64,000 nt of DNA, from contig NZ_CP038639.1 in assembly GCF_004768545.1 (NCBI RefSeq), positions 310,001 to 374,000 of the forward strand, given 5' to 3'. The notes under the pieces are model-generated. The model did not search any database and was not told where the DNA came from. It was given only the letters and a program-made list of their open reading frames with translations. The position numbers and the translations under genes are program-made. Below are positions 772 to 34,129 of this stretch, one piece after another (position 1 is the first letter of the stretch; every line of letters starts with the position of its first letter). This stretch comes from Cupriavidus oxalaticus (GTDB lineage Bacteria > Pseudomonadota > Gammaproteobacteria > Burkholderiales > Burkholderiaceae).

Positions 772-1476
772 ATGCTATCCGTCGCCCCAGAAACCATTCA
801 TCCGTCACTTTGGCTTGCCTCCCAGCTTGCTCGAGGAAGCGCACGCACCGTTCCGACTGGATATCAGTTGCTCGACAAGGAGCTTCCCGGTGGCGGCTGG
901 CCTATTGGTTGCCTGACGGAATTATTGGAGCGCCAACCCGGCATCGGCGAGTTGCGCTTGCTACGTCCTGCGCTCGTTGCGCGCTCGAACCGCCCGGTCG
1001 CGCTTCTGGCACCGCCGCACGCGCCTCAAGCGTTGGCGCTCGCCAACTGGGGCGTCCCGTCCGCGCAGATTCTCTGGGTCGAAACCCGGCACACCGCTGA
1101 CGCGCTGTGGGCTGCGGGGCAGATCTTGCGCGCCGGAACCTGCGGGGCGCTCGTCTTTTGGCAGTCGCATCTGCGTAACGATGCGCTTCGGCGTCTGCAT
1201 CTTGCCGCCCAAGCCTCGGATGTCCTTTTCTTCGTTGTTCGTCCGACGGCCTGTGTACGCGATGCCTCGCCGGCGCCGCTGCGCCTGACATTGGAGCCTG
1301 CATCGGACGGCATTCGTGTGCAGTTCGTTAAGCGTCGAGGCCCGCAGCAGGAATCGCCGCTACACGTAGCCCTGCATCCCTCCCCCATTCTGTTGTATCG
1401 CCATGCTGCGCCTGTGGATCTGCCTGCGCCTGTCGTCCCTGCCCCTCGAAGTATTCCGGCCGAACTGGTCCACTGA
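772..1476 (+). CDS. imuA: ImuA, RecA-like accessory factor of the SOS mutasome
   Basis: 234 aa. The order imuA-imuB-dnaE2 behind a LexA box identifies it. The protein has the ImuA/SulA-like RecA-fold pattern: VPTGYQLLDKELPGGGWP near residues 27-44, then LLRPALVARS and a hydrophobic VLFFVV strand. ImuA is a damage-inducible partner of ImuB and DnaE2 in mutagenic translesion synthesis in the cytoplasm. AGGAG lies about 8 bp before the ATG. The 3' end overlaps imuB by 74 bp, so the two genes are translationally coupled. Confidence 0.9.
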   Translation: MLSVAPETIHPSLWLASQLARGSARTVPTGYQLLDKELPGGGWPIGCLTELLERQPGIGELRLLRPALVARSNRPVALLAPPHAPQALALANWGVPSAQILWVETRHTADALWAAGQILRAGTCGALVFWQSHLRNDALRRLHLAAQASDVLFFVVRPTACVRDASPAPLRLTLEPASDGIRVQFVKRRGPQQESPLHVALHPSPILLYRHAAPVDLPAPVVPAPRSIPAELVH

Positions 1477-2866: not shown

Positions 2867-2871
2867 TAGCC

Positions 2872-5800: not shown

Positions 5801-6021
5801 TGGTGTTCTTGTCATTGGAGGACGAAACTGGCACCGTCAGCGTCATCGTCTGGCCGTCCATCCTGGAGAGGCACCGACGCGAGGTATTGACGGCCTCGCT
5901 GCTCGGTGTCTATGGTCAGTGGCAATGCGAAGGCGAGGTGCGACACCTGATCGCACAACGCTTTGTCGACTTGTCGCCCATGCTTGGATCCCTGGACACC
6001 GCGAGCAGGAATTTCTGTTAG
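2872..6021 (+). CDS. dnaE2: DnaE2, error-prone DNA polymerase III alpha subunit
   Basis: 1049 aa from the ATG at 2872, 5 bp after the imuB stop; an upstream in-frame extension would run into imuB. Order: an N-terminal PHP domain (YAELHCRSNFSFLAGAS, then ALAITDECSLAG), the PolIII-alpha palm with PDIDVDF acidic residues near 394-400, fingers (RPGPVQGGMVHPYLRRRQG; GFGEYGFPESHAASFA), helix-hairpin-helix and a C-terminal OB fold (about 955-1000, EDETGTVSVIVWP). It performs translesion synthesis with ImuA and ImuB. It is regulated by the LexA box at 731-750 as the last gene of the cassette. Confidence 0.95.
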   Translation: MDINATAGLPDYAELHCRSNFSFLAGASRPEELAERAAQLGYHALAITDECSLAGIVRAHTEAKNAGLRLVVGAWFRLQNADGSSALSFLALARNREGYGNLCELITLARMRAAKGSYVLTPRDLAAPEAPSEHLKGLPDCLIVFTPDYGVAAEKLEAQSAWVSATFAGRAWMGLSLLYKPMDDIHRGTVEAAAARHHLRIVATGNVTMHVRSRKPLHDVLTAIRVHRPVPECGYDLLPNAEQHLRSRLRLANLYPHRYLTESVHIANLCQFTLDELRYEYPEEVIPDGVTPSDYLREEAYVGAHRRYPAGIPLAVQQQLEHELALIRDMSYEPYFLTVYDIVRFARSHGILCQGRGSAANSAVCYCLGITEVDPARGNLLFERFISKERAEPPDIDVDFEHQRREEVIQYLYRKYGRDRAALAAAVTTYRPRSALRDTGKALGVDPAIVDLVAKSHHWFDSKADLLRRFGESGVDPEAELSQRWAHMAVSLLGFPRHLSQHTGGFVLARGKLSRLVPIENAAMADRSVIQWDKDDLDALGLLKVDVLALGMLSAIRRALDLVTQQRGEAFELQDIPAEDPKTYEMISRADTVGVFQIESRAQMSMLPRLKPRTFYDLVIEVAIVRPGPVQGGMVHPYLRRRQGLEPVSYPSPEMEQALSRTLGVPIFQEQVMQVAMLAAGFSAGEADQLRRAMAAWKRKGGLERYHERIVTGMLERGYDLEFAESIFWQIQGFGEYGFPESHAASFALLVYASAWLKCHEPAAFLCAMLNSQPMGFYTPSQLVQDAKRHGVTVLPVDVTVSGWDASLERHDGSVPAVRLGLSQLRSMRRDAAERIETARAIRPFASVKDLTRRASLDRHDVNVLAAGNALIGLTGSRRQAMWQAAAAVPDKDLLRPADLDEPMPELSQPTEGEEIVSDYRSLGLTLNRHPLALLRHKLATLRFVPAEVLATYATRQIARGCGIVTVRQRPSTANGVVFLSLEDETGTVSVIVWPSILERHRREVLTASLLGVYGQWQCEGEVRHLIAQRFVDLSPMLGSLDTASRNFC

Positions 6022-7704: not shown

Positions 7705-7923
7705 ATGCCCAATGTTCATGTGGTGCCAAGTGGCGATCAGTGGAAAGTGGAAGTCGAGGGTGGCGCACAGGCCCCTTCTACGTTTGACAACCAAGACGCC
7801 GCGATTACGTCGGGGACGACGTTGGCCAAACGTCTGCAGGTAGAGCTAATCGTCCATGGGAAGGATGGAGCGATCCGCATGCGAAACTCCTATGGCAACG
7901 ACCCGCGGGACGTCAAAGGCTAA
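7705..7923 (+). CDS. DUF2188 small protein
   Basis: 72 aa, from the ATG preceded by AAGGAG. The sequence (VHVVPSGDQWKVEVEGG, later VHGKDGAIRMRNSYGNDPR) matches the DUF2188 pattern of a short beta-rich domain ending in a DG...I..RNSYG motif. Its 3' end overlaps the ligD start by 32 bp, so it is probably co-expressed with the ligase. The family has no firm function. Confidence 0.8.
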   Translation: MPNVHVVPSGDQWKVEVEGGAQAPSTFDNQDAAITSGTTLAKRLQVELIVHGKDGAIRMRNSYGNDPRDVKG

Positions 7924-10417
7924 GCGCCGTACGGAGAAGCCGCCATCTGCGAAACTGGAGCGGTATCAAAAGAAGCGCAACTTCAGCATCACGCCCGAGC
8001 CGGCGGGAGCGCCTCGACGTCGCAAGAAAGCCGAGTCGTTACGCTTCGTGATCCAGAAGCATTGGGCCCGTCGACTCCACTATGATTTCCGGCTGGAACT
8101 CGATGGCGTGCTGCTCAGCTGGGCCGTGCCCAAGGGCCCCTGCTACGATCCCAGCGAAAAGCGTATGGCGGTCCATACCGAGGACCATCCGCTTGACTAT
8201 GCCAGCTTTGAGGGTGAGATTCCGGCCAAACAGTATGGCGCCGGCTCGGTCATCGTCTGGGATCGTGGCACATGGGAGCCGGTCGGTGACCCGCGCGAGG
8301 GGATGGCGGCGGGCAAGCTGCTGTTCGACCTGTACGGCGAGAAGCTGGCGGGCCGTTGGGAACTGGTCCGCATCGCCAAGCCTGGCGACAAGTCCGAGCA
8401 GTGGATTCTCTTCAAGAAGCGAGACGCCTGGGCACGAACCTTGGCGGAGTTCGACGTGTTGGCCGCATTCCCGGACAGCGTCATCGCCAAGCCGCTCGGG
8501 CCGCTGACCCAGGCGTCGCTGAGCCCGACCAAAATCGATTCCAACGTGACGATGCACGACGCGCCGCTCGCGCCCTTGCCGGCGAAGCTGGCCCCCCAGC
8601 TTGCCACTTTGTCGCCCACACTGCCTGCCGATACCGGCTGGATCATCGAAACGAAGTTCGATGGATATCGGATGCTAGCCAGGATCGAAGACGCCCACGT
8701 GACTCTCTTCACGCGCAATGGTCATGACTGGACGCTCAAGCTGAAATCCCTCGCGGCCGAGATCGAAAAGCTCGACATCTCGGAAGGATGGCTCGATGGC
8801 GAGATCGTGGTGCTTCGCGATGGCGTGCCCGATTTCAATGCGCTGCAGAATGCCATCGACTGTCATCGCAACGACGCGATTGTCTTCTTCGCCTTCGATC
8901 TCCCCTTCTGGGAAGGTCGCGATTTACGCAATTTGCCGTTGGTGCAGCGGCGGGCGAAGCTCTCGGAGCTGGTCAGTGATCAGTCGGAGCGCGTGCGCTT
9001 CAGCGAGGCCTTCGATGCGCCACCGGCACAGATCTTCCAGGCGGCGTGCAAGCTCGGCCTCGAGGGCTTGATGTTCAAGCGTGCGGACGCCACCTATGTT
9101 TCCGCGCGGTCCCAGACCTGGCTCAAGGCCAAATGCAAGCTGCGTCAGGAGTTCGTGATCGGCGGGTTCTCCGACCGCAGCGGGGCGGCCAAAGAAGTTG
9201 GCAAGCTCTATCTTGGCGTGTACGCGGAGGGAGAGCTCCGGTACGCCGGCGGGGTTGGCACCGGCTGGGACAGTGGGACGGCCGTGGACCTGAAGAAGCG
9301 CTTGACGGCGATTGAAATCGAGCAAAGCCCGTTTTCCACGGAGGCGCGCTCCAGCCGCCGCTGGGGCGGCGGCCGTGCGGCCGCGATGCGCTGGGTGAAG
9401 CCAACGCTCGTTGCTGAGGTGGAGTTCTCCGAGTGGACCCCCGAGGGGCATGTCCGCCATGCGTCGTTCAAAGGTCTGCGCGCCGATCATCCCGCCAATT
9501 CGATCCGTCAAGAGGCTGTCCAGACCGTTGTGACGCCCCACGGCACCAGCGCCATCAAGGTTAGCAACCCTGACCGTGTCATCGACAAGTCCAAAGGCAT
9601 CACGAAGGTCGAGCTGGTTCGCTACTACGAAAGCGTGGCCGAGTTCATGCTTCCCCACCTCCTGGATCGGCCGTTGTCGCTGGTGCGCGCGCCCGAAGGG
9701 ATAGATGCCCAGACCTTCTTTCAGAAGCATGCGGAAACGGCAATGCCTGGCCTGACCGAACACCCCTCCTCCCTCTGGCCTGGCCATGCGGCGCTGCTCA
9801 CGGCGGATTCACCCGCGGCGATTGTCGCGGCTGCGCAAATGAATGTGGTCGAGTTCCACACCTGGAATTCCACTGCCGGCAAGATAGACCGTCCAGACCG
9901 GGTCATCTTTGACCTGGACCCCGGCGAAGGCGTACCTTGGGACACCATGCGCGAAGCAGCCGTCCTGGTGCGCACGCTGCTGGATGAGCTGGGCCTGCAG
10001 TCCTGGTTGAAGACCAGTGGCGGCAAAGGCCTGCACGTCGTGGTGCCATTAGCACCGAGGCGGTCTTACGATGAAGTAAAGGCGTTTTCTCGCGCAGCGG
10101 TCCAACATCTCGCTGCCACGCTGCCGCAACGCTTTACTGCCCGATCGGGAGCGGCCAATCGCAAAGGGCGGATCTTCGTCGACTACTTGCGTAATGGCTT
10201 CTCGCAAACGACTGCGGCTGCTTTCTCGGCGCGCGCAAGGCCCGGACTCGGCGTCTCCATGCCTGTTTCCTGGGACCAGCTTGCAAAATTGAAAAGCGGC
10301 GATCAGTGGACGATTCGCGATGCCCGCGAGTACCTGAGTTTCCAGGTGGTCGATCCTTGGGCGTCGTACTGGGAGACGAGGCAGGTGTTGACCGCCGCAA
10401 TCAAGCGGTTAGGCTAG
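7892..10417 (+). CDS. ligD: LigD, multifunctional ATP-dependent DNA ligase of NHEJ
   Basis: 841 aa from the ATG at 7892 (MATTRGTSKAKRR). Three domains in order. A 3'-phosphoesterase (about 50-190) has HWARRLHYDFRLELDG and HTEDHPLDY. The ligase (about 225-530) has its adenylated lysine at K255 in ETKFDGYRM. A primase-like polymerase (about 560-841) has the metal-binding pair D674/D676 in FDLDPGEG and the TSGGKGLHVVVP motif. LigD processes and seals double-strand breaks together with Ku. No ku gene is visible in this window. It overlaps the DUF2188 gene upstream. Confidence 0.95.
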   Translation: MATTRGTSKAKRRTEKPPSAKLERYQKKRNFSITPEPAGAPRRRKKAESLRFVIQKHWARRLHYDFRLELDGVLLSWAVPKGPCYDPSEKRMAVHTEDHPLDYASFEGEIPAKQYGAGSVIVWDRGTWEPVGDPREGMAAGKLLFDLYGEKLAGRWELVRIAKPGDKSEQWILFKKRDAWARTLAEFDVLAAFPDSVIAKPLGPLTQASLSPTKIDSNVTMHDAPLAPLPAKLAPQLATLSPTLPADTGWIIETKFDGYRMLARIEDAHVTLFTRNGHDWTLKLKSLAAEIEKLDISEGWLDGEIVVLRDGVPDFNALQNAIDCHRNDAIVFFAFDLPFWEGRDLRNLPLVQRRAKLSELVSDQSERVRFSEAFDAPPAQIFQAACKLGLEGLMFKRADATYVSARSQTWLKAKCKLRQEFVIGGFSDRSGAAKEVGKLYLGVYAEGELRYAGGVGTGWDSGTAVDLKKRLTAIEIEQSPFSTEARSSRRWGGGRAAAMRWVKPTLVAEVEFSEWTPEGHVRHASFKGLRADHPANSIRQEAVQTVVTPHGTSAIKVSNPDRVIDKSKGITKVELVRYYESVAEFMLPHLLDRPLSLVRAPEGIDAQTFFQKHAETAMPGLTEHPSSLWPGHAALLTADSPAAIVAAAQMNVVEFHTWNSTAGKIDRPDRVIFDLDPGEGVPWDTMREAAVLVRTLLDELGLQSWLKTSGGKGLHVVVPLAPRRSYDEVKAFSRAAVQHLAATLPQRFTARSGAANRKGRIFVDYLRNGFSQTTAAAFSARARPGLGVSMPVSWDQLAKLKSGDQWTIRDAREYLSFQVVDPWASYWETRQVLTAAIKRLG

Positions 10418-17522: not shown

Positions 17523-18171
17523 TGGTTGGACGGAGTCATGTCTTTGCACCATCCGGGGCAACTAGATCGGAACGCCGCCGTAGGTGACGGAGGCCCCGCC
17601 CCAGAACGCCGCCCGCGCAAGACACTAAACTTCGATACGCCGGCTGAACGATTCCATCAAGCTGTTGCGTTGACCGGTTGAAGCTGCAGCCCGATCTCGG
17701 TCGGATGTGCCCTTTCCGGGCGACCGTCCCCGGAATTCGGCGATGAGCCTTTCTTTTGCCCGCTTTTTGGAAGGTCATGACTCTCTACATCGGACTCGTG
17801 GCCGCTCGTCAGCGTCCGCAGACGACCTGCCCCTATTCTGCAACCGTTCGTGCATCGTCTCGCAGCGTATCAACATCATTGTCGCAGGCGCCTCGTCTGT
17901 GCCGGCGACGGCAGTCTCCGCGGCGCTGCGCAGATATACTTGCCGGGAGACGATCGCGACAATCACGATGAAGGCGCCGACGCCGATGGCGCGGGCCGCA
18001 AACGGAAGGTATCGTCCCATCAAAGTCGCACTGGGTAGCAGAAATTTGGTGGCGAAGGCTACACGAAGTTGCCATAAGCCGATGCTACGCTGTTGCAGGG
18101 TTGACACGACCCCATTTTCCCATAAGGAGCCGGAACGCGCGTTGTGTAACATCGCACTGGGCCTGAAGAGC
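17523..18171. other. Largely non-coding gap
   Basis: Apart from the doubtful membrane protein at 17775-18020 I see no gene, RNA or repeat here. Confidence 0.4.
17775..18020 (-). CDS. Possible small single-pass membrane protein
   Basis: 81 aa from an ATG at 18020. It has a hydrophobic stretch AIGVGAFIVIVAIVSRQVYL near residues 11-30 and then a polar tail. No clear ribosome site and no known domain. It is called only because of the convincing transmembrane segment; it could be a chance frame. Confidence 0.3.
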   Translation of the reverse strand: MGRYLPFAARAIGVGAFIVIVAIVSRQVYLRSAAETAVAGTDEAPATMMLIRCETMHERLQNRGRSSADADERPRVRCRES

Positions 18172-18396
18172 ATGCCAAAGACAATCGCTCCTCTACCGCG
18201 CGGCTACTACTGGGCCATCCCGCACGCACTTTTTCCGCTGGACGGTCCGAATGGCCATGATGAGGTCTTTCCTGGAGCCCACTGTGTCAGCGATGGCAAA
18301 TGGGTCACCTTCAATAAGAACGGGCAAGAGGTCTGGGCGTGCAATGCCATCTATGCCGCAGCCCATTTCGACTTTGCTCCCGCTGCGAGCACCTGA
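18172..18396 (+). CDS. Hypothetical protein, 74 aa
   Basis: The frame from the ATG at 18172 reads GYYWAIPHALFPLDGPNGHD, EVFPGAHCVSDGKWVTFNKN, GQEVWACNAIYAAAHFDF. It is aromatic-rich and protein-like, whereas the upstream part of the same open frame is not. No domain is recognised. It is convergent with the operon that follows. Confidence 0.5.
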   Translation: MPKTIAPLPRGYYWAIPHALFPLDGPNGHDEVFPGAHCVSDGKWVTFNKNGQEVWACNAIYAAAHFDFAPAAST

Positions 18397-18593
18397 GCGT
18401 CGAGAGCCGACTGAGGTGCCGGCGCGCCGCCGATACTGCGACGTACTACGCGATAAGCACAACGTTATCGTGCCTTATCGCCGCATCCCAGCAATGCCAG
18501 CGCCTCACGTGCATCCGGCCCGGCGCGCTGCGTCCAATCGTGACCCGCCAGAGATGGCGGAAGCGCAAGGGCGTAGCCGACAAAGTGCGGCCG

Positions 18594-18633
18594 GTCAGCC
18601 TTTAGCAGTCTTGTGACTGCTCTAAAGGCTGAC
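18594..18633. repeat. Strong 40-nt hairpin downstream of the oxygenase operon
   Basis: GTCAGCCTTTAG pairs with CTAAAGGCTGAC (12 bp). A 2-nt bulge, a further CAGTC/GACTG stem and a TTGT loop follow. It lies 86 bp beyond the aldo/keto reductase stop, so it may mark the 3' end of the operon message, but there is no T-run on either strand. Confidence 0.6.
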
Positions 18634-18718
18634 GGTCCTCCAGATTCACTTGCATGGTTGGAATGTTGCGGACATAACTAGCGCAGGTTGGCGGCTGTGC
18701 TGAACTGCGCCAGAGAAG

Positions 18719-19549
18719 TCAGAAGGTGGTCGCCGTGGGATCGGGCCCAATTCGGCCATCTGGGCGGTCCAGGGACGCGATCTGGGCCTGGTCTTCCGGC
18801 GTCAAGCGGAAGTCGAAGACGCCGATGTTCTCGCGGATCCGTTCTGGGTTCGCTGACTTCGGGATGACAATTAGCCCATTGTCCAGATGCCAGCGGATGA
18901 TGACCTGGGCCGGCGTCTTGCCATAACGGGCAGCGATCCTGCTGACGGCGAGGTCGTGCAAGAGCCGGCCCTGACCCAACGGGCTCCACGATTGGGTCCG
19001 CACGCCGAGACGAGCGTTAATGGCACGAAGCGCAAGTTGCTGAAATCGCGGATGCAGCTCGATCTGATTCACCACGGGGATTTCGCCAGTCTCGCGGGTA
19101 ATCCGTGCCAGATGTTCGGGACCGAAGTTCGACACGCCGATTGAGCGCGCACGGCCCTCCTCCTTAAGCCGGATCAGTGCGCGCCAGCTTTCCACATATA
19201 AGCCTCGGGAAGGTGCTGGCCAGTGGATCAGGTAGAGATCGATCGCGGGCAGTCCCAGGCGCCGCAGGCTCTCATCGAAGGCGCGCAGGGTGCGATCATA
19301 GCCTTGGTCCTCATTCCAGAGCTTCGTTGTGACGAAGACCTCTGATTCAGCACCGGCCGCGCGGACCCCCTCGCCTACACCCCGCTCGTTGCCGTAAGCC
19401 GCAGCGGTGTCGAACAGCCGATAGCCGGCCTCGATTGCCCTCCGCACAAGCCCAGTCGCCTCTTCGTCAGGTGTGCGCCAAAGGCCCAGCCCAAGCTGGG
19501 GCAGCAGTGTCCCATCGGCGAGCGGCAGGATCGGCTGTTCGTCCGTCAC
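18719..19549 (-). CDS. Aldo/keto reductase, last gene of the TExSPG operon
   Basis: 276 aa from a GTG at 19549 that overlaps the preceding stop as GTGA. It has AKR signatures: GLGLWRTPDEEATGLVRRAI, YRLFDTAAAYGNERGVGEG (catalytic Asp and Tyr), the Lys in TTKLWNEDQG, LYLIHWP (His), GVSNFG and IPKSANPERIRENIGVFDF (NADPH phosphate binding). It resembles 2,5-diketo-D-gluconate-reductase-type enzymes. NADPH-dependent carbonyl reduction in the cytosol is expected. As the sixth gene of a tightly coupled operon with three 2OG oxygenases, it may reduce a carbonyl made by them. Confidence 0.85.
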   Translation of the reverse strand: MTDEQPILPLADGTLLPQLGLGLWRTPDEEATGLVRRAIEAGYRLFDTAAAYGNERGVGEGVRAAGAESEVFVTTKLWNEDQGYDRTLRAFDESLRRLGLPAIDLYLIHWPAPSRGLYVESWRALIRLKEEGRARSIGVSNFGPEHLARITRETGEIPVVNQIELHPRFQQLALRAINARLGVRTQSWSPLGQGRLLHDLAVSRIAARYGKTPAQVIIRWHLDNGLIVIPKSANPERIRENIGVFDFRLTPEDQAQIASLDRPDGRIGPDPTATTF

Positions 19550-20247
19550 GGCGCGCGTAGGAAGAAGCCAGCAATGCTGGCGCGCACGTGGGCGCCAGCG
19601 TTCTGGTCGACCCTGGCCACGCGGTGCGGGCGGTCCTCGCCCAGCAGCACTAGCCGGTTGGGGCTGGGCGAAATGGCGACCGCGACGTCGGAGATCATGG
19701 CTTCGTCTGGACCGTCGTCCGAAATCCAGGCGTGGTCGCTTCCACGCGCTGGCGAGGATTCCAGCCGCGCAGGATCGGCAGGAGGATAGACGAAGAGCTC
19801 GCCGCCCCAATGCAGCCGCCAGCGTGAATGCACGAAGAACGTAAAAGAGCCGGTGTACTTGGCCGCATCTTGGTGCAGCGATAGTGCGCTTCCGACTGGG
19901 TAGAGCCAGGGGCAGAGGTAGATCCCGGCCCAATCGATGCACTCGGCGCCTGCCACTTCAGGGTGCAGCGCTGAAAGGGTCCTGACCGCGTCGATCAAGT
20001 GGTCGACGGCTGTGCCAGTTGGATAGGTAGCGCCCTTCCAGTCGAAGCGGCCGTCGGGGTCGTAGTATACGGACTCCCCGCGCTGGGGATTGCCGTCCCA
20101 GAGCCGCCACACCCGATCCCACTTTTGCCCGTGCACCCCGCGGTATTGACTCAGGGCGACATGGTCGCGCAGGGCGCCGAAGGCTTTTGGGCCTAGAACG
20201 CCGTCGGAAACTAGCAGTCCATCTTGGTGCAGGGCGATAGAGCTCAT
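19546..20247 (-). CDS. 2-oxoglutarate/Fe(II) oxygenase, 233 aa
   Basis: A double-stranded beta-helix oxygenase. The iron ligands are H125 and D127 in LSLHQDAAKYTG, and the distal H208 in GEDRPHRVARVD. R222 (AHVRASIAGFF) is the likely 2-oxoglutarate ligand. The segment WGGELFVYPP is typical of prolyl-4-hydroxylase-like enzymes. The stop overlaps the reductase start (GTGA) and the start overlaps the preceding stop by 1 bp, so it is translationally coupled. The substrate is unknown; the repeat protein of the same operon is the obvious candidate. Confidence 0.8.
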   Translation of the reverse strand: MSSIALHQDGLLVSDGVLGPKAFGALRDHVALSQYRGVHGQKWDRVWRLWDGNPQRGESVYYDPDGRFDWKGATYPTGTAVDHLIDAVRTLSALHPEVAGAECIDWAGIYLCPWLYPVGSALSLHQDAAKYTGSFTFFVHSRWRLHWGGELFVYPPADPARLESSPARGSDHAWISDDGPDEAMISDVAVAISPSPNRLVLLGEDRPHRVARVDQNAGAHVRASIAGFFLRAP

Positions 20248-20834
20248 CAGACGCGATCCAGTATGCCGGGCATCGGGCTGGGGGAGAGAGATGGCGGGAA
20301 CGCGTTACGGCGCCCGTCGTGGATAAGATTGGCCCGCGCCCCGTCGGCGAAAACGTAGTTCAGGAACAGCTGACCGAAGTCCCCGCCGCGAAACGGCTCG
20401 CGCCAGTGGTCGATGCTGTCGCCGAGATAGATCACCGCATCGCCGGGCCGCTGGGTGATGGCAACGTCGGGCTCGAACCAAATCGGCGGCGTCTGACCAC
20501 CGCTGCAGCCTAGATGAATCGTTGCAGCGACCTGGCAAGAGGCCCTGTCGCGATGACGCGCTAGCTCGTCCCCATGGAAGTAGAGCCGGGCGTAGGCATA
20601 GGTGGGCAGAAGCTGACAGCCACTGGCCTGTTCGATTCCAGGCTTCAAGCCAAGCAGCATGGCATCCAGGGTGGAGTCGCCCCAATGGCTGTCGGCCCCC
20701 GGCGCCTGGCGGTCGCGTTTGGCCTCGCCCCGCCAGTGCCGCAGCAACAAAACATAGTAGAGCGTCCGCGCCATCCGTTCGTCGATGAGTTGCGGAACGA
20801 TGACGAGCCTGCGCTGGGCGAGTTCCGGAACCAT
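20247..20834 (-). CDS. 2-oxoglutarate/Fe(II) oxygenase, 195 aa
   Basis: A short oxygenase with YARLYFHGDELARHRDRASC giving H94-x-D96, then AATIHLG, RPGDAVIYLGDSIDHWREPF (H143) and a final LFLNYVF strand. This is the layout of compact Fe(II)/2OG hydroxylases. It lies 9 bp after the FkbM gene stop and overlaps the next oxygenase by 1 bp. It is probably one of three tailoring hydroxylases acting on the same substrate; the usual C-terminal Arg is not obvious. Confidence 0.72.
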   Translation of the reverse strand: MVPELAQRRLVIVPQLIDERMARTLYYVLLLRHWRGEAKRDRQAPGADSHWGDSTLDAMLLGLKPGIEQASGCQLLPTYAYARLYFHGDELARHRDRASCQVAATIHLGCSGGQTPPIWFEPDVAITQRPGDAVIYLGDSIDHWREPFRGGDFGQLFLNYVFADGARANLIHDGRRNAFPPSLSPSPMPGILDRV

Positions 20835-20843
20835 GCGTCCCTC

Positions 20844-21569
20844 CTAGCGCTTCGGCCCGCTGCGGCCGCGCCAGACCGCGCTGCGCCAGGCCTGGCCCAT
20901 GGATTTCCCCCTCACATCATCCGCGAGGACATAGCCGTCGTCGATGCCCAAGTCCCTCGCCCTCACATAGCCGCGGCTCTCCAGGAATTGGCGGATCTGC
21001 TCGCGGATCGGGCCATTGTTGTGTTCTACGGTCAGCACCCGCAGCCGGTATTTGTCGAATGGGAAGCTCTTTAGAAGGGCAAGCTCAGAGCCTTCCGTGT
21101 CCAAGCTCCAGTAGTCGATAGTCCTAGGCGCGCCCGCGCGTTGCAGCACCGACCAAATTGTGCGGGCCGCCTTGCTTACGGTCGGCGCCAGCGCCCCGGC
21201 TGGCCAACGCTCACCCAGCACCCGCCGCGTGAACGAGAGGTGCCGTGGATCGTACTCTTGAATGATCCCACCGTAGACACCCGCCGCTTCTAGGAAATCG
21301 ACGGACCCGTCCCGGTCGTAGAGGCAGCAGTCCAGACAAATGCAGGCGCGATTTGCTCTCAGCTGCTGGAAGGCCTCCGCGTTGGGCTCCACACAGACAC
21401 CACTCCACCCGTATTCGCTCTCAAGAAGCCAAGTGTTGCTGCCCTTGCGCCCATTGGAAGCACCGGAATCCAGGAAGTAGCCACCAACTTGACCGCCCAA
21501 CGCGTCAACCACGAAGAGGTCCTGGCCTTGATATGAGTAGCTCAGCATCCCATTCCGCACGTCTGTCAT
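20844..21569 (-). CDS. FkbM-family methyltransferase
   Basis: 241 aa from an ATG preceded by GGAGG; an upstream in-frame extension would run into the previous gene. The SAM-binding strand-loop is YFLDSGASNGRKGSNTWLLE followed by YGWSGVCVEPN (acidic ribose ligand). Later motifs are DYWSLDTEGSELALLKSF and RVLTVEHN, typical of the FkbM methyltransferase domain. FkbM enzymes usually O-methylate sugars or small hydroxyls. Here it sits 1 bp after an oxygenase gene, so methylation of a newly made hydroxyl on the repeat protein is a reasonable inference. Confidence 0.85.
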   Translation of the reverse strand: MTDVRNGMLSYSYQGQDLFVVDALGGQVGGYFLDSGASNGRKGSNTWLLESEYGWSGVCVEPNAEAFQQLRANRACICLDCCLYDRDGSVDFLEAAGVYGGIIQEYDPRHLSFTRRVLGERWPAGALAPTVSKAARTIWSVLQRAGAPRTIDYWSLDTEGSELALLKSFPFDKYRLRVLTVEHNNGPIREQIRQFLESRGYVRARDLGIDDGYVLADDVRGKSMGQAWRSAVWRGRSGPKR

Positions 21570-21570
21570 G

Positions 21571-22857
21571 TCAGTGCCTCCTTCGCGCAAGGGCAGCCGA
21601 ACGCCAAGCGGCGCAAACGCTAACTGGTGCTTCCGGCGCAAGCTCCGGCTCGGCGTGATGCTCGTCCAGCCGACGATCGCCATATAGCATCGTCACATTG
21701 ATCCGGTGGCTCAGGTAGTCCGGCCGAAAGCAGACCGCCTCGGTGCCGTGGAAAAGGTCGGAGTTGAAGATGATCGCGCGGTTCTGACGGTACGGGATGC
21801 GGATGGCCCGGGGCTGATGTCGCGTCATCAGTTCACGGATCAGGTCCGGCCGCTCGTTGTACTCGCGGAAGGTCCAGGAGATTGGCGCCTCCAGGTCGTA
21901 CACAACCATGCCCCCCGAATCTGTTTCGAGGTTGGCCTCGTCCGGCGTGATCCAGAAGTTGACGTTGATTGCCGCAAAATCGGCGTGGATCGTGGATCCA
22001 CCTGGCAGGACCTCCGTGTTTTTGAATGCCCAGAGCTGCCGCAAAGGATGGCGCTCGCCGATGATCAACGGGAAGGCGTCGCGAATCTCCTCGGCAATCT
22101 GCAACACCAGGGGCGCATTGAATCCGGTGAAGAAGAGCGTACTCAGCCGGCCGTGGGCATAGCGGTTGCCGGCCCAGATCGTGGAGTCCTGGCAGAAGTG
22201 AAGCAGGCTTTTTAGCGCCTCAGGGGTCAGGAAATCATCGATAACTACCACGCTTGGGCGGCGCTCCAGGTAGTGACGCTGGACCCGCCATCGATCCCAC
22301 GTTGGCGAGAGCGCACGGGGGGTAACGCGCGGCGCTTCGGCGACATGGACTAGCCGTCCGAAAGCCCGCCCTACGCTCTGCTCGTCTTGGTCCGTGAGTG
22401 GAGTCCGCGCGCCCCCCGAACCGGACAGCCTGGCCAGGGCAGCCTTGTATTCCGCGATGATCTCATCCAGTGGCACATCGACGCCGCGGCGGCGCAAATG
22501 CTCGCATTGGTCGAGGTCGTGGCGCAGCTTGCCCACCGACAGGCGAGCGTCAGCGATCGGGCGTGTACGGCCATCTATCCATGCCGGGTGCCACGCGCTA
22601 CCCCGCTCGATACCAGTCAGAATCGCCGCCAAGTCGCCGGCAAAGCCGAGGGCTGCCTGCTCCATGGCCGCAACGACTTCCTCTGCGAGCCACTGTCGGC
22701 CGTCAGGCTCTTCGTTCAGGATTGCCAGACAAAGCGCTGCGGCCTCCCGCGTCCTGTCGCGGCGGACCAACTCCAGCGCCAGGCGCCGCCGCGATTCGCC
22801 GGCAACGACGTCGAGTGCAGCGGCAGGCCCTGCGAGAGCGGCGGCTGCGAAGTTCAT
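21571..22857 (-). CDS. 2-oxoglutarate/Fe(II) oxygenase with helical N-terminal domain, 428 aa
   Basis: Residues 1-145 are alpha-helical and Ala/Leu/Arg-rich, resembling a short TPR-like or substrate-binding domain. Residues 195-395 form the oxygenase core: VVVIDDFLTPEALKSLL, then H291 and D293 in STIHADFAAINVNFWITP, the distal H370 in NSDLFHGTEAV, and an Arg in SHRINVTMLYG (R385). The start overlaps the stop of the repeat-protein gene as ATGA, the tightest coupling in the operon. That points to direct action on that protein. The helical N-terminus could recognise its helical linkers (inference). Confidence 0.78.
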   Translation of the reverse strand: MNFAAAALAGPAAALDVVAGESRRRLALELVRRDRTREAAALCLAILNEEPDGRQWLAEEVVAAMEQAALGFAGDLAAILTGIERGSAWHPAWIDGRTRPIADARLSVGKLRHDLDQCEHLRRRGVDVPLDEIIAEYKAALARLSGSGGARTPLTDQDEQSVGRAFGRLVHVAEAPRVTPRALSPTWDRWRVQRHYLERRPSVVVIDDFLTPEALKSLLHFCQDSTIWAGNRYAHGRLSTLFFTGFNAPLVLQIAEEIRDAFPLIIGERHPLRQLWAFKNTEVLPGGSTIHADFAAINVNFWITPDEANLETDSGGMVVYDLEAPISWTFREYNERPDLIRELMTRHQPRAIRIPYRQNRAIIFNSDLFHGTEAVCFRPDYLSHRINVTMLYGDRRLDEHHAEPELAPEAPVSVCAAWRSAALARRRH

Positions 22858-23561
22858 TCGGCCTCTAGACCGCTGGCAGCCAGGGCTCCCTGTCGCCTCA
22901 CGGCGACGGCGTACTGGACCAGCGCGCCAAGGGAGGTCATCACGAAGGGGGCCAGTTGCACCCCCCAGGTGCCGCCGAAGCTTGTACCCGGACTGACCTC
23001 AGTCCCGCCCCCGGGGCTTACTTCCGTGCCGCCGCCCGGGCTCATTTCCGTTCCCTCAGCGACCCGGAAGTCGCCCAGGAAAAGCTGGGCACGGCGCAAC
23101 GAGGCGGCGAGCGACTCAGCCCAGTTCAGGGCGCCTGGGCTCATCTCAGTGCCGCCGCCCGGGCTCTGTTCAGTCCCGCCGGGACTCATCTCCGTACCCT
23201 CTGACGCTACCTTCAGAACGGCATTGGAGAAGCGCGCCGCGACATTGATCTCCGCAGCCAGCTGCTCGGACAGCCGAGCGCCGGGGCTCATTTCCGTCGC
23301 CGTGGCGCCAGGGCTCATCTCCGTGGCGGTGACGCCCGGGCTCATCTCGGTCCCGTCCTCGGCGCGCGCCAGGAGCTGACTCAGACGCTGGGCATTGCGT
23401 ATTGAGCGGGCGAGTCCTTCGGCGAGCCGCAGCGCACCGGGACTCATCTCGGTGCCGCCTGGGCTTTGCTCAGTACCGCCTCCAGGACTCATCTCCGTAC
23501 CTGACGCCACTCGGAGGATCTCTGCGTCGAAGCGGGCCGCACTGGTCAGTTCGGCCGCCAA
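22854..23561 (-). CDS. TE[M/Q/V]SPG repeat protein, candidate multi-core precursor peptide
   Basis: 235 aa. Twelve TExSPG motifs form four triplets, at residues 22-42, 71-94, 123-143 and 171-192. Eight have Met, two Gln and two Val at the third position, with Gly, GG or ATA/VTA spacers. Amphipathic helical linkers of about 26-28 residues separate the triplets and are similar to one another (for example LAAEINVAARFSNAVLKVAS). The C-terminal 43 residues are hydrophobic and lack motifs. The only in-frame start is a TTG at 23561 with no ribosome site, and the first linker begins mid-unit next to IS21-type repeats, so the N-terminus is probably lost. It is coupled (ATGA) to the first oxygenase. 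A RiPP-like precursor or modified repeat protein is inferred. Confidence 0.7.
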   Translation of the reverse strand: MAAELTSAARFDAEILRVASGTEMSPGGGTEQSPGGTEMSPGALRLAEGLARSIRNAQRLSQLLARAEDGTEMSPGVTATEMSPGATATEMSPGARLSEQLAAEINVAARFSNAVLKVASEGTEMSPGGTEQSPGGGTEMSPGALNWAESLAASLRRAQLFLGDFRVAEGTEMSPGGGTEVSPGGGTEVSPGTSFGGTWGVQLAPFVMTSLGALVQYAVAVRRQGALAASGLEAE

Positions 23562-23570
23562 GCGTGCGTA

Positions 23571-23765
23571 TTTCGGGGCGCGTGATCAGCGATTTCGGGG
23601 GAACGTGATCACCTGTTTCGGGCGGAAGCTGATCGCTGGTTTCGGCGGAACGTGATCACTTCGGCGACGCCGCCGAAATCGGTGATCACGTTCTCGAAAC
23701 GAGTGATCACGTTGCCGAAATGGGTGATCAAGCAGCCGAAATGGGTGATCACGCACCGTAATGGG
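23571..23765. repeat. Head-to-head IS21-type terminal repeats
   Basis: Four units of the form TTTCGG..GAACGTGATCA (starting 23571, 23593, 23616, 23640) face four inverted units CGAAATGGGTGATCACG (from about 23673). The centre is near 23667. Multiple short repeats at each end are typical of IS21-family elements. The right-hand set lies directly upstream of an istA fragment. The left-hand set abuts the repeat-protein gene. Confidence 0.65.
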
Positions 23766-23848
23766 GCCGAGCAAGGGTTAGGGGTGGAACTGCGCATGGA
23801 CTAGAACGCCGGCGATACGCTGCTTCCTTTTTTCAAGGAAGCAAGCTG

Positions 23849-24124
23849 ATGCCGGCCAACCGGATGACCATGCGCAAAATCAAGGAAGTGCTTCGCCTGA
23901 AGTGGGCGTGTGGCCTTTCGCACCGGCAGATCGCTAGGGCGACTGGTGTGAGTGTTGGCGCCGTTTCGCAGTACGCGGCAATGGCGAAGGCAGCGGGGCT
24001 GGATTGGCCGCAGGCGGACAGCCTGAACGAAGATACGCTGGAGCAGCGGCTGTTCGGCGCGCAGAAGCCGGCCAACAGCCCGGGCGGGCGGGTGACGCCG
24101 GACTTCCCCTATCTGCATCCGTCG
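23849..24124 (+). pseudogene. IS21-family transposase IstA, N-terminal fragment
   Basis: About 92 codons: MPANRMTMRKIKEVLRLKWA, GLSHRQIARATGVSVGAVSQ (helix-turn-helix), GLDWPQADSLNEDTLEQRLF, PDFPYLHPS. This is the conserved IstA N-terminus. It stops matching at about 24124, where another set of terminal repeats begins, so the catalytic core and istB are missing. Confidence 0.85.
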
Positions 24125-24491
24125 GTTTGCACAAACTTGTTCCCGGTTTTTGCAGAATTTTGTTCCTGGCCCCATGGGCCAGACCAAAGAGCGTCGCGGG
24201 AAGGAGGCCTGACCCGTGACGGCCGCCCTTCCAGCCTCACCGGCGTGCCGCCGGCTTGGCACCGTGAGCGCGCGGGGCACGCACGGGGCCCCTGACGGCG
24301 CGCGTCCGCGGCTTCGCCAGCCGCAGCGGGCCAGGCAGCGACTGACCGATCCGTTGGGAAAAGGAACAAAATTACGCAAAACGTCGCCTGGAGGAACAAT
24401 ATTCTGCAAAGTTTCTTTGCATAAAATTGTTCCCGGTGCCTCGGAAACGGCCAGCTGGCGGGCGACCAGCAGGAACAAAATTGTGCAAACC
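24125..24491. mobile_element. Remnant element with multiple GGAACAAAATTNTGCAAA terminal repeats
   Basis: Six copies of a roughly 20-bp unit occur: two as TTTGCA.AA..TTGTTCC (24129, 24150), two inverted (about 24363, 24394), one direct (24413) and one inverted (24471). They enclose about 190 bp with no gene; a short MGQTKERRGKEA-stop frame could be an istB tail. The repeated termini suggest deletion derivatives of a second IS21-like element, one end in istA and the other in the AlbA_2 gene. Confidence 0.5.
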
Positions 24492-25384
24492 AACGGCACA
24501 TCTTTGCGGATCGCCTTGCCAATGACTTCGTTGGAGGGAAGCAGAGCATTGATGTACCCGATCAACCCCTCGAAACCTGCCGCATAGCCACGTGCTCCAA
24601 CTTGTTCCTTCAACGTGCTGATCCGGTTTCCGCCTTCGTAGGCAATCACACGGACCGCTTTGCGCCGCAGCGGCCCAAAATCGTCGAGCCGTTTCGCGAA
24701 GAGAATCGCGCCCAAGTTGGTGATGTCCCATGCACCACTGCCGTTGCGCCGGATCAAGCTTTCGGCGGCCAGGCGCTCTAGGATCTGAGCCCGATTCTCG
24801 GGTAGCGGAATGCCGGCTAGGTCGAAGTACGCCGGATAGTCGAGAAGCGTTACCACCTCTTCTTCCCGTACATCCTTACGGGCGACCATCGCTTCGAAGG
24901 GCGTCTCATCGAAGATGCGCCAGAGCTCCCGCTCTTTTTCGGGGAACTCTTTGAGCTTCTTCTTCAGAGATCCGATTCTGATGAACTCGTTGTGCATGAA
25001 CTGGACCGGATGCCTATAGGCTCGGCCAACTTCGAGCACAACGACGCGCAGACCATCCAGTTCGACAGTACTGAACGAGAAGTTGATCTTCGGACTGAGC
25101 AGCCGTAGCAGCCAGTTTTCCAGTTCCTCATTGCCAATCTTCGCTGCGGATGGATCGAACGTCGTGCCGACGACCTCATGGGTTGCGTCGTCGATGCCCC
25201 ATACCAGATATCCGTGCGCCCGATCGCAGAGCGCCGCGGAGTTAGACAACGCTGAGATGTACTCGCCGATCTGCTCTTGATCTACGCGGTTGCGTTTGAA
25301 TTCCAACCATTCGGTTTCGGCTGGCAACTTACAGAGTTCGCGAACCAGGCTCGCAAGCGTTTCGAGAGAGGAGGAGGAACTCAT
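24492..25384 (-). pseudogene. AlbA_2 (Schlafen-like) protein, truncated by insertion remnant
   Basis: The first ~297 codons are intact. TEWLEFKRNRVDQEQIGEYI, SALSNSAALCDRAHGYLVWG and IDDATHEVVGT are the classic AlbA_2 / Schlafen-AlbA_2 putative DNA-binding domain (about 22-75). A winged-helix-like region follows (LERLAAESLIRRNGSGAWDITNLGAILFA). After AIRKDVPL the frame runs into the mobile-element remnant, so the C-terminal half is lost. It lies 85 bp downstream of the DnaJ-fusion gene on the same strand. Family members regulate transcription or act in defence modules. Confidence 0.8.
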
Positions 25385-25469: not shown

Positions 25470-27455
25470 TCAGCGACTAAGCACGAGTCCGTCGCCGAGC
25501 TTGGCCGCCAGAATCATCAAGTTCTGGCAGAACTTCCGCTTTTCCTCTGGCACCCCTGGCTGGTTGGCAATCCAACCCTTGAATGCGTAGAAGGACTCAG
25601 GGGAGATCGCGGTCAGGCGCTCCATGACGCCCGTATTGGTAAAGACGATTGTGCTGACCCGACCGCCACGCAGTAGCTTGGCTATCCCATAGGACATGGC
25701 CGCCCCGCTGTCATCCGCAATCGTGGTCGACAGCGTCGCTTCCGACGTGCTCGCTTTCACTGCGCCGACGATGTCGACCACAAATCCGACTTCGTTTCGC
25801 CCGCGCACGCAGGCACCCATCCTGGGGGCGAGTATGAAGGTCGGATCCACGGCCTGGAGGGCGCGCAGGATGACTGACTCTGCGATGGGCTTCGCCGTGA
25901 CGAACTGCACGCGCTTGTTGTAGAGCCCGAGTCTGACGGCATCCTCGATGCTGCAGCCTGCGGCGGACGCATAGGCAAGGATCGCATAGTTCCCGATGAC
26001 CGAGATCGTCTCCGCGAAGCCCGCGCCGCGAAACGCCTCCAACAACTGAACCAGCATCTGTGGGGCATTCCCCGGCGCGGATACGGAAGCCAACCGCTTG
26101 GCCGCGACGCTGCCTGGGCGGGTTTCCCGCGACGCCGCAGCGCGGCAGGCGGCCTCCCATTCTGCAAAGCGCTGACGTGCCACGCCCTGCTGCTCCAACT
26201 CCAGGCTTTCCAGATGGCGAACTTCGAAGCCGCCGCATTGGAACTTGCTAGGTCCATATGCGGAGGTCGCTGGCTCTGGGGCCTTCTTCGCACGCGCAAA
26301 GTCGTGAGCCGCTTCGCGGGTCCGTTCAGGTGAGCGATCGGGCTCCGCAGGACGCTCTTGTGTTGCCGCCTGCTTTGCAGGCGCGGCCGGCCGCGGCTTG
26401 ATTGCTGGTTCGCGTCCGGCAAACCGGCGTAGGTGGTCGAGTTGCTCTTCCGCGAACGGCCCCTTCGGCAAGGTCAAGAGCACTTTCGCGATGGCGTCTC
26501 CCACCTGGCCAGTCTTGGCGTCACGTAGGCCTTTGCCTGCAAAACGCAAAGACTTGCCGTTGCCCGTATTCGGCGGGACCTCTACCTCGAAGGTTCGCCC
26601 CACGATCTCGATGGTGGTCTTCCCTCCGAGCCACGCCGTGATGCAATCGATCTTGACCTCGCAGTGGACGTCGAGACCCTTCAGGTACGTAGACCCGGAC
26701 TTCGCCACCCGGATTTCGCAGAGTAGGTCCCCGGCCGCGCCACCGAACTCCCCTGGCATGCCGCCACCGACTGCACGAAGCACGCGACCGGCCGGGGTAT
26801 TCGCCGGCACTTGGATATTGAAGCGCTTGGTCTGTTTGAATGCACCCTTCCCTTTGCACGCTCTGCAGCGCCAATCGACCCCCGACCCCTTGCATTTGCT
26901 ACAAGTACGCCGCCGCCAACCATCCGCTGAAGGATGCCACCCGTCGCCGTCGCATTTCTCACACGCTTCGGGAGCGTACGCTTCACCGGAGCCCCGGCAA
27001 GACGGGCACGTGTCTTCAACTTTGACCTCGACAGTTGTCTTGCCACCACGGAGCGCCGTGTCAGCGTCGATTGTCGCCTTGCAGCGGATGTCCTCGCCTC
27101 TTACAGGCGCCGGCTTGGATTGGCGGCGCCGATGGCGGCTCTGGTGAAATTGCTGGCGAAAGAAGTCTTCGAAGTTAGAGTCGTCTTCGTCCGCCCCGGA
27201 CCACCAGGGGTGCCCGCTGCGAGTCGAGCCATTGCTCTGGTTAGGGTCGTACTGCGCGCGCTTCTGGGCGTCGCCAAGGATGCGGTTAGCCTCCTCAATT
27301 TCCTTGAATTTCTCCTCGGCTTGCTTCTTTTCCCGTTCAGACTTGCCATGCTGTCGGTCGGGATGAAATTTCATTGCGAGCCGCCTGTAGGCCACTCGGA
27401 TCTCCGCCTCTGTCGCACCAGGCGAAACGCCGAGAGTGTTGTAATAGTTAATCAT
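25470..27455 (-). CDS. DnaJ chaperone fused to a nucleotidyltransferase-like domain
   Basis: 661 aa. The J domain (1-70) has HPD at 31-33. Four CxxCxGxG-type zinc motifs follow (CPSCRGSG, CEKCDGDG, CSKCKGSG, CRACKGKG, about 149-210), then the DnaJ C-terminal substrate domains to about 355. A proline/alanine linker precedes an unrelated C-terminal domain of about 230 aa. That part (LVQLLEAFRGAGFAETISVI, GNYAILAYASAAGCS, VDPTFILAPRMGACV, EVGFVVDIVGAV, FYAFKGWIANQPG) resembles GSU2403-type nucleotidyltransferase-fold proteins. I am confident in the DnaJ half, less so in the second. It is upstream of the AlbA_2 gene, probably co-transcribed. Confidence 0.8.
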   Translation of the reverse strand: MINYYNTLGVSPGATEAEIRVAYRRLAMKFHPDRQHGKSEREKKQAEEKFKEIEEANRILGDAQKRAQYDPNQSNGSTRSGHPWWSGADEDDSNFEDFFRQQFHQSRHRRRQSKPAPVRGEDIRCKATIDADTALRGGKTTVEVKVEDTCPSCRGSGEAYAPEACEKCDGDGWHPSADGWRRRTCSKCKGSGVDWRCRACKGKGAFKQTKRFNIQVPANTPAGRVLRAVGGGMPGEFGGAAGDLLCEIRVAKSGSTYLKGLDVHCEVKIDCITAWLGGKTTIEIVGRTFEVEVPPNTGNGKSLRFAGKGLRDAKTGQVGDAIAKVLLTLPKGPFAEEQLDHLRRFAGREPAIKPRPAAPAKQAATQERPAEPDRSPERTREAAHDFARAKKAPEPATSAYGPSKFQCGGFEVRHLESLELEQQGVARQRFAEWEAACRAAASRETRPGSVAAKRLASVSAPGNAPQMLVQLLEAFRGAGFAETISVIGNYAILAYASAAGCSIEDAVRLGLYNKRVQFVTAKPIAESVILRALQAVDPTFILAPRMGACVRGRNEVGFVVDIVGAVKASTSEATLSTTIADDSGAAMSYGIAKLLRGGRVSTIVFTNTGVMERLTAISPESFYAFKGWIANQPGVPEEKRKFCQNLMILAAKLGDGLVLSR

Positions 27456-32409: not shown

Positions 32410-33504
32410 TCATGCAGCCAAACGCTGGTTTTCGGCGCCTGGCTTGATACCGGAGGGCACGGCAATCTCGCGCTCCGGATTGAGCGTGACCGTTTCGATT
32501 GGCGACCAGTCTCGAGTGTTGCATGACCAGCGACGCGGATTGTGCTCACGGGCCTGAACATACAGCGCGTGGCGCGCGGCGAGAATCTTGTCGTCTTGTC
32601 CGGCGTGGCGCTGCGCCGGGCTCACGTAGCGGATGCCGCTGTGCCGGTGCTCATGGTTGTACCAGTGGACGAAGTGCGCCGCCCAGGCGCGCGCCGCGGC
32701 CAGATCGGCAAAGCCCTTGGACGGGAACTCCGGCCGGTACTTGGCCGTGCGGAAGAGGCTTTCAACAAACGCGTTATCGTCGCTCACGCGCGGACGCGAA
32801 TACGAGGGCTTGACGCCCAGCCAGTGCAACATCGCCAGCACCGTGGTGGCCTTGAGCGTGGCACCATTGTCGCCGTGCAGCACCGGCTTGGCCGCCATGG
32901 CGTGAATACCCTCGGCCAGCGCCGTACGCTTGACGAGATGCGCCGCGTGGTCGGCGTCGTCCCGATCATGGACTTCGAAGCCCACGATCTTGCGGCTGTA
33001 CACGTCCAGGATCAGGTACAGATAAAACCAGCGCCCGGCGACCTCAGCCGACAGGTAGGTCATGTCCCAGCACCACAGTTGGCGCGGGCCCGTGGCCACG
33101 TGCGTGGTAGGTGGCCGGCTTTGGCGCGGTGCCTTGGCGCGTCCTCGATGCCGAGTCTGCCCATGGGCGCGCAGCACGCGACCAAAACTCGATTCGCTGG
33201 CCAGGTAGACGCCCTCATCGGCCAGCATGGGCACGATGCGCGCCGGCGGCATGTCGGCGAAGCGCGGCTCGTTGGCAACGGCCAGAATGCGTTCGCGTTC
33301 CTCGATGCTCAGCGCATGCGCGGGCGTGGGCCGCTCGGCCCCGGGGCGGCGGTCGCCGACCACCAGGCCATTGTGGGCCTTCCAGCGTTGCAGCGTGCGC
33401 ACGGTTATGCCAGCTACCTCGCAGGCCAGGCGCAGGCGAGCACCGCCTGCGTGAGCGGTTTCGATATGGCGGACCATCGTGTGGCGATCTTCCAGGCCGA
33501 TCAT
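32410..33504 (-). CDS. IS3-family transposase OrfB (copy 1)
   Basis: 364 aa. An N-terminal helix-turn-helix and HTH_21-like region (VRTLQRWKAHNGLV) precedes the integrase core. The DDE residues lie in WDMTYLS, HGDNGATL and DDNAFVESLFRT, with the IS3-typical spacing to FVHWYNHEHRHSGI. It starts at an ATG overlapping the orfA stop (ATGA) rather than by ribosomal frameshift. Confidence 0.93.
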   Translation of the reverse strand: MIGLEDRHTMVRHIETAHAGGARLRLACEVAGITVRTLQRWKAHNGLVVGDRRPGAERPTPAHALSIEERERILAVANEPRFADMPPARIVPMLADEGVYLASESSFGRVLRAHGQTRHRGRAKAPRQSRPPTTHVATGPRQLWCWDMTYLSAEVAGRWFYLYLILDVYSRKIVGFEVHDRDDADHAAHLVKRTALAEGIHAMAAKPVLHGDNGATLKATTVLAMLHWLGVKPSYSRPRVSDDNAFVESLFRTAKYRPEFPSKGFADLAAARAWAAHFVHWYNHEHRHSGIRYVSPAQRHAGQDDKILAARHALYVQAREHNPRRWSCNTRDWSPIETVTLNPEREIAVPSGIKPGAENQRLAA

Positions 33505-33986
33505 GCGTCCTCGTCCTTGTCCTTCGGGAAGATCCCCTCTAGCTTTTTTGAGAGTATCAACAGGGCGGCGGCTTCGGCCAGGGCTTTCTCCTTGCGGCGC
33601 AGCTCGCGCTCGAGTTCCTGGATGCGGCGCCGATCGGCCTTTGTCTCACGGTGGGTGGCGCGCGCATCCTCGGGTTCAGCCAGCGCCTGCGTGGCGGCAG
33701 TGCGCCACTGCTCCAACTCCTGCGGATACACACCGTTCTCACGGCACCAGGCGTTCTTGCTGGCCTCGTCCATCGCAGCCGTCGCCAGCACCGCCTCGAA
33801 CTTGGCCGCCGCTGTCCATGCCCGCTCGCGAGCGGGCATGGACATAGCGTCCGCACGCCAGCGCTCCAGCGTGGCCACTGCCACACCCAATTCCCTTGAA
33901 ACCACTTCCACCGCCGCACTCTCCGGCGGTAACAACCGTGCTACCGCCCGGTCCTTAAAGTCTTGTCCGTATCGAGCCACTGCCAT
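33501..33986 (-). CDS. IS3-family OrfA, HTH and leucine-zipper protein (copy 1)
   Basis: 161 aa. The helix-turn-helix (KDRAVARLLPPESAAVEVVS, LGVAVATLERW) is followed by a long coiled coil (IQELERELRRKEKALAEAAA), as in IS3 OrfA proteins that bind the terminal repeats. It is translationally coupled to OrfB. Confidence 0.9.
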   Translation of the reverse strand: MAVARYGQDFKDRAVARLLPPESAAVEVVSRELGVAVATLERWRADAMSMPARERAWTAAAKFEAVLATAAMDEASKNAWCRENGVYPQELEQWRTAATQALAEPEDARATHRETKADRRRIQELERELRRKEKALAEAAALLILSKKLEGIFPKDKDEDA

Positions 33987-34129
33987 CCCTTATCGCCCCC
34001 AAGTTCGGATTCTATCGGGGCGACATCTATTCTGCCGCGGGGGGGCATGGCCACGGCAGCCCAAATGCCCACCCTCGCTTGACGAGTCAAGGGTATTCCA
34101 TGCTTGAAGCCGTGCGCCGTATTGCGTAA

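Follow-up and report, generated by a model that had tools for sequence, protein, structure and literature searches.

A RiPP-like tandem-repeat protein family, apparently undescribed so far, and its damaged member in an oxygenase and methyltransferase operon of Cupriavidus oxalaticus

The stretch of Cupriavidus oxalaticus DNA studied here, 64,000 nucleotides long and called the window below, contains a minus-strand operon encoding a tandem-repeat protein, REP, and five enzymes. REP (22854..23561, 235 amino acids) is a precursor-like protein with twelve TExSPG motifs, 5'-truncated and without a leader domain. It is followed by OXY1 (21571..22857), which has an N-terminal helical (TPR-like) domain, an Fe(II)/2-oxoglutarate (2OG) oxygenase domain and a C-terminal WRS tail, by an FkbM-family methyltransferase (PF05050, 20844..21569) that also ends in a WRS tail, by the oxygenase-like OXY2 (20247..20834), by the 2OG oxygenase OXY3 (PF13640/PF13661, 19546..20247), and by a DkgA-like aldo/keto reductase (AKR, 18719..19549) regarded as accessory. 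REP and OXY1 overlap by ATGA, OXY1 and FkbM are separated by 1 bp, FkbM and OXY2 by 9 bp, OXY2 and OXY3 share one base (TGATG), and OXY3 overlaps AKR by GTGA. The AKR start was taken as the GTG at 19549 (276 amino acids, equal to the orthologue in the Rhizobacter locus L003) instead of that of the longest open reading frame (ORF). An earlier note on this DNA had described six minus-strand genes that overlap or lie at most 9 bp apart, and the recomputed coordinates bear this layout out.

REP contains twelve copies of TE[M/Q/V]SPG (residues 22, 30 and 37; 71, 80 and 89; 123, 130 and 138; 171, 179 and 187), positions that agree with the four triplets of the earlier note; 1000 residue shuffles of REP gave at most one motif (mean 0.001). 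On the minus strand, the first triplet (TEMSPG, TEQSPG, TEMSPG) occupies 23436..23498, the second (three TEMSPG) 23280..23351, the third (TEMSPG, TEQSPG, TEMSPG) 23133..23195 and the fourth (TEMSPG, TEVSPG, TEVSPG) 22986..23051, and a conserved C-terminal 'follower' segment (ALVQYA...RRQGAL..SGLE, 22857..22979, minus strand) is recognised by alignment and forms a helix in one relative's model. Synonymous codons vary among the twelve motifs (ACG, ACT or ACC for Thr; CCT, CCA, CCC or CCG for Pro), which argues that the motif is held at the protein level and is no fresh DNA duplication. No Pfam or NCBIfam model scored above its cut-off on REP, and the collagen-like pattern of Gly at each third residue is absent from its sequence and motif positions. 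The x position of TExSPG is most often Met (488 of 808), as would be expected if oxidation or methylation of Met were the point of the motif; however, Val, Ile, Ser and Gln substitute for it, Val and Gln even inside the window protein. Met, one of the targets listed in the earlier note, is therefore an unlikely one, and a motif made for Met modification is highly improbable.

The window REP is, judging by its sequence, a 5'-truncated remnant in which the leader end has been replaced by an IS21-type insertion sequence (IS) element. The left part of this element (23564..24119, plus strand) ends no more than 3 bp from the first possible REP start codon. It matches, at 96% identity, part of a longer copy on contig C4 of the same genome, the ORFs of which resemble IS21 istA and istB when their translations are read; a third partial copy in the genome has the same end. 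A leader profile gave no match in the genome of the window strain (102 of 102 candidates scored), while the same profile detected the leader in six of six known genomes. Since REP is truncated at the IS21-type end, its repeats may now be poor substrates, and the earlier note's view of them as the substrates of the operon has to be revised accordingly: the repeats of the 235-residue protein are real, but the protein is incomplete and lacks a domain which its relatives carry. Two observations concern the DNA next to the break: an AlbA_2 (Schlafen-like) ORF (23801-25384, minus strand) runs with its 3' end into the IS21-type remnant, and the Pfam matches of a 148-residue ORF at 23849 are solely to sigma-region-4 (helix-turn-helix) models.

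We give an even chance to the possibility that this locus is in decay and has no present function, its enzymes being kept only because the IS insertion is recent. This explanation fits the truncation of the ORF at an IS21-type end and the lack of a leader in the whole genome, as well as the lack of a second operon copy in a search of the strain's genome. On the other hand, the five enzyme ORFs are intact, and dN/dS between the window and the Rhizobacter operon is 0.07-0.18 for each of the six genes; these values show purifying selection on all six relative to that operon, cover the history both before and after the insertion, and may mostly reflect the period preceding it. Decay of the local copy would be compatible with the interpretation of the family given below.

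A search of 5.8 billion proteins identified 63 family members including the window's REP (the relatives being P0002-P0063), and a search with a broader alignment identified 102 proteins, of which 82 were new. The leader motif is present in 53 of the first 63; among the ten without it, one is the window REP and the other nine look like fragments or late starts. Intact relatives, of the kind that the earlier note had suggested looking for in orthologous operons, consist of a leader domain of about 135-137 residues with a nearly invariant LLREQFVTDP stretch, followed by (G)TExSPG repeats and the conserved C-terminal segment. In the AlphaFold model of one relative the leader forms eight helices, the C-terminal segment contains the conserved helix, and the repeat core is of low confidence and is probably disordered. 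Thr occurs in all 105 cores measured; three or more GT dipeptides are found in 99 of them and two or more [S/T]PG in 70, and Gly and Thr are enriched 3.6-fold and 3.8-fold, respectively, in these cores compared with the leaders. The core units themselves vary widely between members (GTEMSPG, GTQVSPG, SGTETSTGTAFGTEQSGTHIST, GTDITG, TTGEP), and the cores of L023, L024, L040, L041, P0122, P0127 and P0131 share ITWxT[Y/F/W], with or without GT repeats.

Neither Pfam nor NCBIfam gave a match above cut-off among 10 relatives, nor did NCBIfam in a set of 13, and precomputed domains among 145 proteins were limited to PF00805 (pentapeptide repeats) on two (P0114, P0122) and PF05690 on one. Members occur in Pseudomonadota and Actinomycetota, and the named ones are mostly called 'hypothetical'. 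In line with the earlier note, which named no known family with this core, searches with repeat and leader strings gave no paper among 5.39 million open ones (most subscription papers and bioRxiv lying outside the search). As in ribosomally synthesised and post-translationally modified peptides (RiPPs), the genes of the relatives encode a precursor whose leader is conserved and whose core varies, the window copy being without the leader. The repeat-protein family is real, conserved and RiPP-like, it is apparently undescribed so far, and the window holds a damaged member of it.

The earlier note's assignment of three 2OG oxygenases stands for OXY1 and OXY3, while that of OXY2 depends on its conserved H94-x-D96...H143. 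In OXY1, H291, D293 and H370 are invariant in 43 of 43 aligned rows, and the model (pLDDT 86.3) has a double-stranded beta-helix with HxD...H (Foldseek, VIA matches), while the only Pfam match is a weak one to DUF6445; TPR_11 is matched in 20 of the 43 rows, the window OXY1 itself having no TPR match in Pfam. OXY3 matches PF13640 (E 1.2e-6, 29.8 bits against a cut-off of 27), and its H125-x-D127...H208 is invariant in four of four sequences, as is the OXY2 triad. The window OXY2 has no Pfam match, one of the four OXY2 sequences reaches E 0.21, and no PDB oxygenase was matched by sequence. FkbM is matched by PF05050 (E 2.8e-12, 47.6 bits, cut-off 22.7), whereas TIGR01444 (26.8) stays under its cut-off of 37.7, and AKR is matched by PF00248 (E 3.8e-51), with DkgA as nearest NCBIfam model, below cut-off.

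OXY1 and FkbM, proteins of unrelated folds, have a WRSxxx C-terminal tail in common, which may be a shared docking tail. Among the 120 OXY1 relatives listed (of 2255), 114 carry WRS within the last 45 residues, and it occurs elsewhere in them just twice; six of seven FkbM proteins have WRS and the seventh SRS. The tails are encoded near 21571-21620 (OXY1) and 20844-20900 (FkbM) in the window, are found also in L002-L007 and among P0146-P0265, and are of low confidence in the OXY1 model. One of the listed relatives, P0148 (a cluster of 81 member sequences), is an 84% identical OXY1 of Ralstonia pseudosolanacearum.

A scan of 84,980 species genomes gave six loci, and genome samples gave further ones; 17 loci besides the window were examined. 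Ten belong to leader branch A (L002 Massilia, L003 Rhizobacter, L004 Geodermatophilaceae, L005 Methylocapsa, L006 and L007 Streptomyces, and L023, L024, L040 and L041), six to leader branch B (L025-L028, L042, L043), and one is L029. OXY1 lies in the same cluster as the leader protein in ten of ten branch A loci and in none of the six of branch B, where a radical SAM relative of the enzyme encoded between leader protein and OXY1 in L005 is present in six of six, with other cores; profile comparison shows the leaders of the two branches to be homologous (probability 99.4, E 5e-22). Further support for the linkage of OXY1 comes from contig sizes, as 16 of 139 repeat-protein clusters have equal contig size with one of the 120 listed OXY1 clusters, against a mean of 0.98 and a maximum of at most 4 in 120 shifted controls; one of the 16 pairs is the window, one is the L002 species and 14 are new. 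Modifying enzymes are thus encoded beside the precursor in both branches, and we infer that these neighbours modify it.

The enzyme set also follows the core. FkbM accompanies GT[E/D/H] cores only, being present in six of the ten branch A loci (L002-L007) and not found in L023, L024, L040 and L041. Outside the window, OXY2 and OXY3 occur in L002, L003 and L004 alone, which are exactly the loci with SPG cores; the association is four of four against none of seven with the window included (p 0.003) and three of three against none of seven without it (p 0.008), both values resting on few loci and ignoring kinship. Co-occurrence of the enzymes with TExSPG proteins, which the earlier note had proposed as a check, was seen for OXY1, FkbM, OXY2 and OXY3 in all three readable outside loci (L002-L004), but AKR is variable: a DkgA-type enzyme is found at L003 only, a distant one (30% identity) follows OXY3 in L002, one lies on the opposite strand close to the L007 cluster, and the L004 stretch showed none. 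OXY1 is also encoded with cores lacking [S/T]PG (L005, L006, L007, L023, L024, L040, L041), so Ser/Thr-Pro-Gly is not its general target, and this makes it rather improbable that all three oxygenases act on one residue, the proline of X-Pro-Gly, in a collagen-like way.

Prevalence rates are lower bounds, at most 10-37 candidates having been scored per genome, and include already known genomes. The family was found in at least 5 of 345 genomes of the L006 Streptomyces family and at least 7 of 392 of the genus (overlapping samples), at least 2 of 17 of the genus of L002, at least 3 of 199 of the family of L005 and at least 1 of 112 of the family of L004. For the class of the window the lower bound is 0 of 369, and for its family at least 1 of 393 (leader model) and at least 2 of 150 (precursor model), the leader-model sample having missed the weak G123 match of the precursor model and containing a weak match of its own, G128/L044. 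L029 (5238-5489 and 7321-10488), from the genus of the window strain, has a short leader-like ORF without OXY1, and genes for a lantibiotic dehydratase, Cupin_8, DUF2252 and DUF6895 proteins lie nearby. In the radical SAM branch, the long repeat core of one precursor-like protein, in L028 (7131-8216), is rich in Cys-Pro, and a conserved GPEKS..TSPATPSTSDKSANSSQNFNN-like core recurs in P0092, P0121, P0123, P0126, P0132-P0136, P0138-P0142, P0144 and P0145, with Chromobacterium, Massilia and Gemmatimonadaceae among the named sources. A TraG_N gene (17648-20542) about 1.7 kb past the operon of L003 hints at a conjugative element.

The window holds a five-enzyme operon behind a truncated repeat protein, and we consider it fairly likely that the enzymes form a leader-guided system which hydroxylates and methylates the repeats. 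The eight-helix domain would serve as RiPP leader or docking domain, holding the enzymes and presenting the core. OXY1, being the sole enzyme that accompanies every branch A leader, is assigned to the shared Thr-containing unit (GT[E/D/H/Q] in most cores), which it would hydroxylate. This unit would also be methylated by FkbM, whether ahead of OXY1 or following it, by O-methylation, which we favour, or by backbone N-methylation, for which there is RiPP precedent. OXY2 and OXY3, found with SPG cores only, are assigned to the Ser-Pro-Gly part, which they would oxidise, most simply by prolyl hydroxylation, and the reductase may adjust the oxidation state in some lineages. In the window strain, with the IS21-type element in place of the leader end, the enzymes probably modify their local substrate little, if at all; the core idea of the earlier note, modification of the repeats by the adjoining enzymes, holds for the family and is less sure for this strain. 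Two results weigh against the proposed scheme: TExSPG repeats flank the leader-like domain on both sides in 7 of 117 proteins (P0011-P0016, P0019), which does not fit a simple leader and core order, and in L023, L024 and L041 OXY1 accompanies a short non-repetitive ITWxT[Y/W] core, which does not fit a simple Thr-repeat rule.

REP could instead be an ordinary structural or binding repeat protein, the enzymes making or modifying a small molecule which it scaffolds or binds. Small molecules are common substrates of the AKR and FkbM families, the structural matches of OXY1 include enzymes of small molecules or free amino acids (KanJ, HalB), a pentapeptide-repeat domain is precomputed on two family members, and no recurrent peptidase or exporter was found by Pfam among 10 chosen flank ORFs, which gave one S49 peptidase (L003) and one MFS protein (L002). 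We nevertheless regard this explanation as unlikely, because the enzyme set follows the core sequence, because homologous leaders pair elsewhere with a radical SAM enzyme and different cores, and because the core, which is modelled with low confidence, is not predicted to fold.

With regard to known systems, OXY1 differs from PHD2 and bacterial P4H prolyl hydroxylases by its N-terminal helical domain and its occurrence with cores lacking [S/T]PG; its identity to the PHD2 and bacterial P4H rows is 11-14%, and non-prolyl enzymes score equally high. Collagen and its prolyl 4-hydroxylase offer a likeness in Pro-Gly repeats and in a TPR-type peptide-binding domain on the hydroxylase, but the window system lacks the Gly-X-Y periodicity and has, in relatives, a leader domain, along with FkbM and extra oxygenases. 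The nearest characterised case found is pythonamide. In its ere pathway, as reported, an FkbM enzyme N-methylates the backbone, and EreI, an iron/2OG hydroxylase, adds 15.99 Da to methylated cores only, further maturases acting on the same ribosomal precursor; this precursor is, however, called a proteusin and has a 46-residue core, and EreI belongs to the Asp/Asn beta-hydroxylase family (PMC9259500). In the present family the leader is unmatched, most cores consist of tandem repeats, and the 2OG enzyme OXY1 carries a TPR-like domain. The leaders of proteusins, or nitrile hydratase-like leader peptides (NHLP), are long, folded and helical and guide enzymes, that of MprE being a three-helix bundle of 81 residues (PMC12455567), as against about 137 residues and eight predicted helices here. 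None of 10 and none of 13 leaders reached the 34-bit cut-off of the NHLP-related model TIGR04509 (best 14.3 bits, E 0.032).

Elsewhere in the window, 772-6021 contains three ORFs, one without Pfam match, one of the IMS (ImuB-like) kind and one of polymerase III alpha type, which we take to resemble an imuABC mutagenesis cassette; a LigD-type ligase follows (7856-10417). A single ORF at 25470-27455 combines DnaJ, DnaJ_C and a C-terminal nucleotidyltransferase (NTP_transf_8) domain, and ORFs at 32542-34107 (plus strand) and 51388-53103 (minus strand) have identical first 50 residues and are probably two copies of one repeated element.

A wider proposal, to which we give slightly less than an even chance, is that these proteins belong to a class of ribosomal products spanning more than one phylum, whose long tandem-repeat cores are held by an eight-helix leader and a C-terminal clamp helix while they are modified iteratively. 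The enzymes would form a modular code, with OXY1 for the shared Thr unit, FkbM for GT[E/D/H] repeats, two further oxygenases for Ser-Pro-Gly ends and radical SAM for the sister branch, OXY1 and FkbM docking by their WRS tails. What they make would be no small peptide but a repeat polymer with heavy hydroxylation and methylation. If leader-guided modification is true, a large family of modified proteins would be added in Pseudomonadota and Actinomycetota, and with it a natural test case of how a single docking domain enables several oxygenases to work on many near-identical units. From the correlation of SPG cores with OXY2 and OXY3 one can predict the mark that each enzyme makes, and this would be testable in E. 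coli with few genes.

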